Source of the DNA: a virus
Length of the DNA: 25,714 nt
IMG/VR virus record: IMGVR_UViG_3300021963_000587
Coordinates: 1-25,714 of that record
Strand: one strand, 5' to 3'
Under the pieces are notes generated by a model, which searched no databases, had not been told where the DNA came from, and saw nothing but the letters and a program-made list of their open reading frames with translations. This document shows positions 14,171 through 15,130 of the stretch, piece after piece. A program made the translations under genes and the position numbers. Each line of letters opens with the position of its first letter. Position 1 is the stretch's first letter.

Positions 14171-14725
14171 TTATCCCTTCTTCTCTTTGTTTAGATTGGC
14201 TTGCAGGGTCTTCTGTGCGTCGTCCATTGCGGATCTGACATTGGCATAAATTCTGGGGCGATCGCGATCAATAACGGCCCAGATTCCGCGACTGGCTTTG
14301 CGGAAGCGGTCATTCAAATTGCCGATCATCTTGCGCCCGGTTGCTTGCCCTGGCGTCCTGCGTCCTGCGACTTCGAATATAACGCCCGAGGCTGTCTTAT
14401 TGAAGAGTGCGCCTGCGCTGGTGGTGTAATCGGCCCTCACGCGGCCTTCTGAGCGAGTTTTAACGATGCCCTGCTTGATTGCCTGGGGATCCCATGCCGG
14501 CCAGCCTTCGCCACCTCTGGTGGTCTTTCTTGGGTTCTTTGCGGCTGTTGATCGCCAGCCACTCATGGGTGGTTTGTCTGGGATCTGTTCTTTGGCGTTG
14601 CCTTCGGCCAGGCGCAGCTCGTCGTTGATTACTTTGTTTAGGCGACGAGCTGCGTCCTTGTCGAATTTCTTCAAGGCGGCGGTGGTTTCTTTGATGCCGC
14701 TAATTGCAACGACTTCATTGGCCAT
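14171..14725 (-). CDS. HK97 gp10-like neck / minor tail protein
   Basis: The 184-residue product begins MANEVVAISGIKETTAALKK, followed by a helix (FDKDAARRLNKVINDELRLA) and a basic, glycine-rich middle. This resembles HK97 gp10-like proteins, which join head and tail or complete the tail. Its position is unusual: it lies between the frameshifted chaperone gene and the tape measure rather than before the tail tube genes. The first 11 bases overlap the end of the frameshift extension. Assignment to the gp10 family is moderate; a separate minor tail protein is the alternative. Confidence 0.6.
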   Translation of the reverse strand: MANEVVAISGIKETTAALKKFDKDAARRLNKVINDELRLAEGNAKEQIPDKPPMSGWRSTAAKNPRKTTRGGEGWPAWDPQAIKQGIVKTRSEGRVRADYTTSAGALFNKTASGVIFEVAGRRTPGQATGRKMIGNLNDRFRKASRGIWAVIDRDRPRIYANVRSAMDDAQKTLQANLNKEKKG

Positions 14726-15130
14726 ATTTGTTTGCCGCCTTTGCCTTCTCCTTGAGATAGATCACGATCGCTTCAAGTATGCCATCTGGTGCGTCCAATA
14801 AAGAAACGGGATCTATTCCTGTCTCCACAGAAACTGCTGCGATTGAATATGTCAGGCTGTCTCTGTGGATTCTGAATTTGGGTCTGTATCTAGTTGCACT
14901 CCTTCGAGCGTATCTAAGAAATCAGGGCCGAACGGTTTTACAACCACTCCATTGGCTTTAAGTGCAAGCCATCCGAGATAATAGATGTGTTCGAGTTTCT
15001 GTTCTTCGCCGATAAGTTTTGCTAGACCTTTGCCGTACTTCTGCTCGAAGTCGACGATGATGCGTGGTCGTAACGAGAACGTCTTTTCCACGCCATCGAT
15101 CGTCTTGACTTTGATATTGAGTCCATCCAT
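14715..15130 (-). CDS. Tail assembly chaperone, long form made by -1 frameshift
   Basis: Ribosomes that slip back one base at C CCA AAT (14876-14882) after residue 85 read through the short-form stop into a second frame. They add 53 residues, beginning FRIHRDSLTY and ending KEKAKAANKYGQ, to give a 138-residue fusion. The extension has no start codon of its own in the right place yet reads as a well-formed protein, which is strong evidence that it is used. In lambda-like phages the short (G) and long (GT) forms bind the tape measure and load tail tube subunits. The end overlaps the next gene's ATG by 11 bases. Confidence 0.88.
14824..14882 (-). promoter_or_regulatory. -1 programmed frameshift signal: slippery heptamer plus stem
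   Basis: The heptamer CCCAAAT (14876-14882) lies in the zero frame as C CCA AAT, a canonical X XXY YYZ site. Six bases downstream begins a perfect 8-bp stem, TCCACAGA (14862-14869) with TCTGTGGA (14824-14831), enclosing 30 bases. A CCTG in the loop could pair with CAGG just 3' of the stem, giving a possible pseudoknot. The zero frame stops only 24 bases past the site, while the -1 frame stays open for 53 codons. Confidence 0.88.
14852..15130 (-). CDS. Tail assembly chaperone, short form (gpG-like)
   Basis: A 92-residue protein starting MDGLNIKVKTIDGVEKTFSL, with a helical acidic body (VDFEQKYGKGLAKLIGEEQK, then LEHIYYLGWLALK), and an acidic tail after the frameshift site. This is the form made without slippage and is normally the major product. 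It lies directly downstream of the tail tube genes, the conserved place for chaperones. The ribosome site GGGGGA lies seven bases before the ATG. Identification rests on position, length and the frameshift to a second frame. Confidence 0.9.
   Translation of the reverse strand: MDGLNIKVKTIDGVEKTFSLRPRIIVDFEQKYGKGLAKLIGEEQKLEHIYYLGWLALKANGVVVKPFGPDFLDTLEGVQLDTDPNSESTETA

Follow-up and report, generated by a model that had tools for sequence, protein, structure and literature searches.

The tail assembly chaperone gene of an actinobacterial siphovirus very probably yields two proteins from a single start, through a -1 ribosomal slip at CCCAAAT. The gene lies on the minus strand of the window, the whole 25,714-nt stretch analysed here (IMG/VR record IMGVR_UViG_3300021963_000587). 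A programmed -1 frameshift at this heptamer, proposed in the initial annotation, is supported by constraint on the -1 frame, by synonymous invariance of the heptamer, by an invariant downstream stem, and by the heptamers and extensions of distant relatives. The G/GT principle has long been known; the protein family is as yet unrecognised in databases, and this member of it is unannotated. Two points stand out: the asparagine codon AAU as the second codon of the shift site, and the turnover of the slippery sequence inside one family.

Gene order, slippery site and -1 frame

The genes run on the minus strand from two tail-tube paralogs through the 92-aa chaperone gene and a 184-aa gene to a 779-aa gene of tape-measure size (Table 1), so that the chaperone gene sits between a major tail protein, assigned by PHROGs, and a probable tape measure protein, recognized by size and position. 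The chaperone gene ends GAC CCA AAT TCA GAA TCC ACA GAG ACA GCC TGA, with 21 nt between the heptamer C_CCA_AAT (14882-14876) and the 0-frame TGA (14854-14852). A -1 shift at the heptamer would lead into FRIHRDSLTYSIAAVSVETGIDPVSLLDAPDGILEAIVIYLKEKAKAANKYGQ and on to a TGA at 14717-14715, adding 53 residues after Asn85 for a total of 138; the predicted fusion junction reads ...DTDPN-FRIHRDSLTYSIAAV.... The initial annotation had described a short chaperone stopping at 14852, a -1 frame of 53 codons reaching 14715, and a perfect X XXY YYZ site upstream of the stop; its coordinates and counts hold, and the site is in phase. Across 24 window genes, in-frame X_XXY_YYZ sites occur at 15 of 6789 codon positions, and only the chaperone's has a stop within 30 nt. 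On the minus strand of the window, CCCAAAT itself occurs once.

Table 1. Features of the chaperone locus and its neighbours in the window
Feature	Coordinates	Strand	Evidence
Two tail-tube paralogs	15969-15559, 15559-15152	-	PHROGs major tail protein
Putative 0-frame tail assembly chaperone, G-like, 92 aa	14852..15130	-	ORF; position between tail-tube paralogs and tape measure; profile homology to phiPsal1 chaperone family
Slippery heptamer C_CCA_AAT	14876..14882	-	In phase; invariant in 48/48 relatives
Spacer, heptamer to stem, 6 nt	14870..14875	-	Sequence and relatives
5' arm of the putative 11-bp stimulatory stem	14859..14869	-	Paired in 48/48 relatives
3' arm of the 11-bp stem	14824..14834	-	GTT TCT GTG codons, zero synonymous change
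CAGG, proposed pseudoknot partner of loop CCTG (14856-14853)	14818..14821	-	Doubtful pairing
Predicted -1 frame extension, T-like, 53 residues and stop	14715..14876	-	Open in relatives; dN/dS 0.125; homologous extensions in wider family
Next gene, 184 aa	14171..14725	-	No family match; ATG overlaps extension end by 11 nt
Probable tape measure protein, 779 aa	11825..14164	-	Length and position; no family match

Most ribosomes would terminate at 14852 and release the 92-residue G-like protein. A minority, with tRNA-Pro on CCA in the P site and tRNA-Asn on AAU in the A site, would pause at an 11-bp hairpin 6 nt downstream, slip one base back to CCC AAA, and read on to 14715, giving a 138-residue GT-like protein. 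If lambda is a guide, coating of the tape measure would fall to the G part and recruitment of tail-tube subunits to the T part. The slippage mechanism, its efficiency and the roles of the two proteins are inferred.

The chaperone role of the 92-aa protein is suggested by its position, the gene order and the GT arrangement. Neither half of the product matches Pfam or PHROGs, and the chaperone half also has no match in NCBIfam, or in the PDB by sequence or by fold. The structure predicted for the chaperone half is confident (pLDDT 81.6). All of its BFVD matches at E<=0.001 are phage proteins that are unnamed or uncharacterised; an annotated chaperone appears once, at just E 0.17. Both consecutive tail-tube paralogs (15969-15152, minus strand) match the same PHROGs family, phrog_4574.

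Selection on the heptamer, hairpin and extension

Close relatives were collected from a scan of viral contigs, which gave 386 stretches of which 80 were kept, with further ones from a second query; de-duplication left 98 distinct relatives, 48 of them non-redundant. C_CCA_AAT occurs at the identical place in all 48 non-redundant relatives. The codons GAC CCA AAT show zero synonymous variation across this set (p = 0.002, resampling equal-degeneracy columns), and neighbouring codons vary. From the stop to just beyond the 3' stem arm, ten codons carry 1.4 synonymous units where 3.6 would be expected (p = 0.0007); both p-values are approximate, being resampled from columns of the same gene.

Past the chaperone stop, the -1 frame has a dN/dS of 0.125 among the 48 relatives, a mark of purifying selection. 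Read in the other two frames, the same bases give 1.76 and 1.31, and these frames are interrupted by stops in 48/48 and 47/48 relatives. Variable sites in the extension fall 13, 8 and 33 times at codon positions 1, 2 and 3. The -1 frame ends early at one of 131 loci (index 329), which may lie outside the 402-nt set or reflect an assembly error. Comparison among relatives shows, at the level of sequence, that the -1 frame is translated and that the slip site and the stem are under selection.

The stem begins 6 nt after the heptamer, as first described, and is longer than the 8 bp originally given: the pairing TCCACAGA/TCTGTGGA extends by G-U, A-U and C-G to 11 bp, joining 14869-14859 with 14834-14824. 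All 11 pairs are kept in 48/48 relatives, a conservation that in this close group overlaps coding constraint. Two pairs vary, within pairing rules only (G-U/A-U and C-G/U-G) and with one-sided changes; the nine others never vary and are uninformative by themselves. Folding of 101 nt of the window around the site gives -24.1 kcal/mol with a structure z of -2.4, and z ranges from -3.2 to -5.5 for the 70 nt that follow the heptamer in the eight C_CCA_AAT-group sequences folded. The 6-nt spacer falls inside the range of 5-9 nt that has been the focus of many studies (PMC5009743).

If the frameshift is real, the downstream element could also fold beyond a simple hairpin into a true H-type pseudoknot, which we consider unlikely. 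The 4-bp loop pairing put forward earlier, CCTG (14856-14853) with CAGG (14821-14818), is present in the window and intact in 42/48 relatives, but one pair is lost in the other 6/48 and the CAGG codons show synonymous variation near average. The second stem is thus not credited, showing no excess constraint across the 48 relatives, and an 11-bp stem joined to it by only 2 nt would probably be strained.

A Shine-Dalgarno-like AAGGAG (14904-14899), 16 nt before the heptamer, was considered as a further stimulator and rejected as not general, since it is absent from a second clade (e.g. GAAGCTGTATC).

The wider chaperone family

A protein search of named phages recovered Pontimonas phage phiPsal1 at 27% identity. 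Its chaperone gene (MG835450) ends GAC TCA AAA AAA TAA, and the -1 frame runs on into a related extension. Profile comparison by hhalign links the window's clade to the phiPsal1 family through each half, with E 3e-11 for the chaperone and E 9e-11 for the extension; by this sequence homology of both halves, the window gene is a member of the phiPsal1 chaperone family. The initial annotation had suggested searching the extension for relatives: BLASTP with the window and phiPsal1 extensions as single sequences returned nothing, but profiles did find relatives, connecting it to those of the wider family. A scan of the genome collection gave no relative.

A scan with the phiPsal1 fusion product found 51 loci; the 51 members analysed are 50 of these plus phiPsal1, with the partial match L130 left out. 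An in-frame A_AAA_AAA or C_CCA_AAA lies 7-19 nt before the stop, with the -1 frame open beyond, in 50/51 members. The exception, L088, read from a match starting at query residue 6, showed no such arrangement. At L087, L095, L099-L102 and L105 the heptamer adjoins a -1 stop and the -1 frame opens exactly there, which confines the shift to the heptamer or the few bases after it, within the last 7-19 nt. In EBPR siphovirus 6, gp13 (L138 1481-1860, JF412301) carries C_CCT_TTG ahead of its stop, together with a related -1 extension that is unannotated.

The phiPsal1 group and its metagenomic relatives share with the window a homologous chaperone and extension, the gene order, and an in-frame heptamer before the stop; they differ in that A_AAA_AAA stands directly before the stop, with C_CCA_AAA in sister groups. 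Part of the A_AAA_AAA group (A3 columns 15-52, L106-L132) has a hairpin of its own, 7 nt past the heptamer, in which 4 pairs are changed on both sides, giving 10 such cells against 3.7 in shuffles, a difference that kinship can inflate. Little structure is seen in the C_CCA_AAA groups tested (z -2.2 to +1.2), against z of -3.2 to -5.5 in the C_CCA_AAT group. In Rhodococcus phages REQ1, Shagrat, Jflix2 and Madraxi, too, a related tail-tube protein lies upstream and the tape measure is preceded by a chaperone pair, but the chaperones are longer and show no X_XXY_YYZ near the stop. The gene order at chaperone loci of Rhodococcus phages is like the window's, and the Jflix2 locus is annotated with a joined frameshift.

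The fusion might instead arise by transcriptional slippage or by an indel, which is very improbable. A7 runs in relatives (L083 among them) could also make the polymerase slip, and poly-A motifs have been discussed in light of polymerase slippage (PMC3711429), but the longest run in CCCAAAT is three, and no indel, whether from sequencing or mutation, would turn up again in each of the 48 relatives, all of which conserve heptamer and stem. Still less probable is a separate small gene with its own start, translated by coupling or re-initiation once ribosomes have stopped at the end of the chaperone: the -1 frame does offer GTG at 14828, TTG at 14798 and GTG at 14765, but none has a ribosome-binding-like sequence ahead of it, and the conserved block SLTYSIAAVSVETG has no start codon before it and would then not be made. 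Several phiPsal1-type relatives have a -1 frame that is open only from the heptamer onward. The chaperone family yielded no relatives that have a separate start and lack a slippery site, which would have counted against a programmed shift.

Ribosomal slippage at the heptamer is by far the favoured reading. The family supplies a range of naturally occurring slip sites and hairpins with which to test how phages hold the frameshift ratio fixed. One tentative interpretation, which we hold somewhat less likely than otherwise, is that the slippery sequence changes within this single chaperone family (A_AAA_AAA, C_CCA_AAA, C_CCA_AAU, C_CCU_UUG) with shift position and extension preserved, a weaker Asn-AAU heptamer being offset by a stronger hairpin so as to hold the G to GT ratio fixed. 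The comparison also suggests a likely function for a chaperone family present in hundreds of uncultured phage contigs and absent from the family libraries searched. The annotation of the named phage phiPsal1 misses the long form: phiPsal1_016 (L082 5001-5410, MG835450) is entered as a hypothetical protein, and the -1 extension after A_AAA_AAA is unannotated.

Known frameshifts and genomic context

Among the closest parallels is lambda G/GT, whose role and ratio have been reviewed (PMC5009743). Both systems have a short chaperone and a -1 extended form, a slip just before the stop, and a position between tail tube and tape measure; they differ in that no sequence relationship is established and the window has C_CCA_AAT. 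Some tailed-phage shifts seemingly occur without stimulators (PMC5009743); the window's clade has a conserved strong hairpin.

C_CCA_AAG is highly shift-prone in E. coli, and Asn AAU as second codon is not among the shiftiest there (PMC5009743). In haloviruses, which have archaeal hosts, Asn is likewise the second shift-site codon of a tail chaperone, read from AAC rather than the AAU seen here (PMC5009743). In the SEA-PHAGES data analysed with PRFect, all four bases occur at each of the X, Y and Z positions of the heptamer (PMC10885494). On these reports, C_CCA_AAT is unusual yet within the known kind (PMC5009743; PMC10885494). A literature search for CCCAAAT in frameshift papers gave no tail chaperone among the matches listed.

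Other window genes bear on the host and on the virus more broadly. A WhiB-like regulator gene (872-390, minus strand), with a weak helix-turn-helix match, presumably points to an actinobacterial host. At 6028-3781 (minus strand) lie a glycosyltransferase-like gene (below the Pfam cut-off), an uncharacterised 237-aa gene and a NAD-dependent epimerase gene, suggesting possible glycan modification. A ParB-like domain fused to an N6/N4 DNA methylase is encoded at 25642-24317 (minus strand), adjoining the terminase genes.
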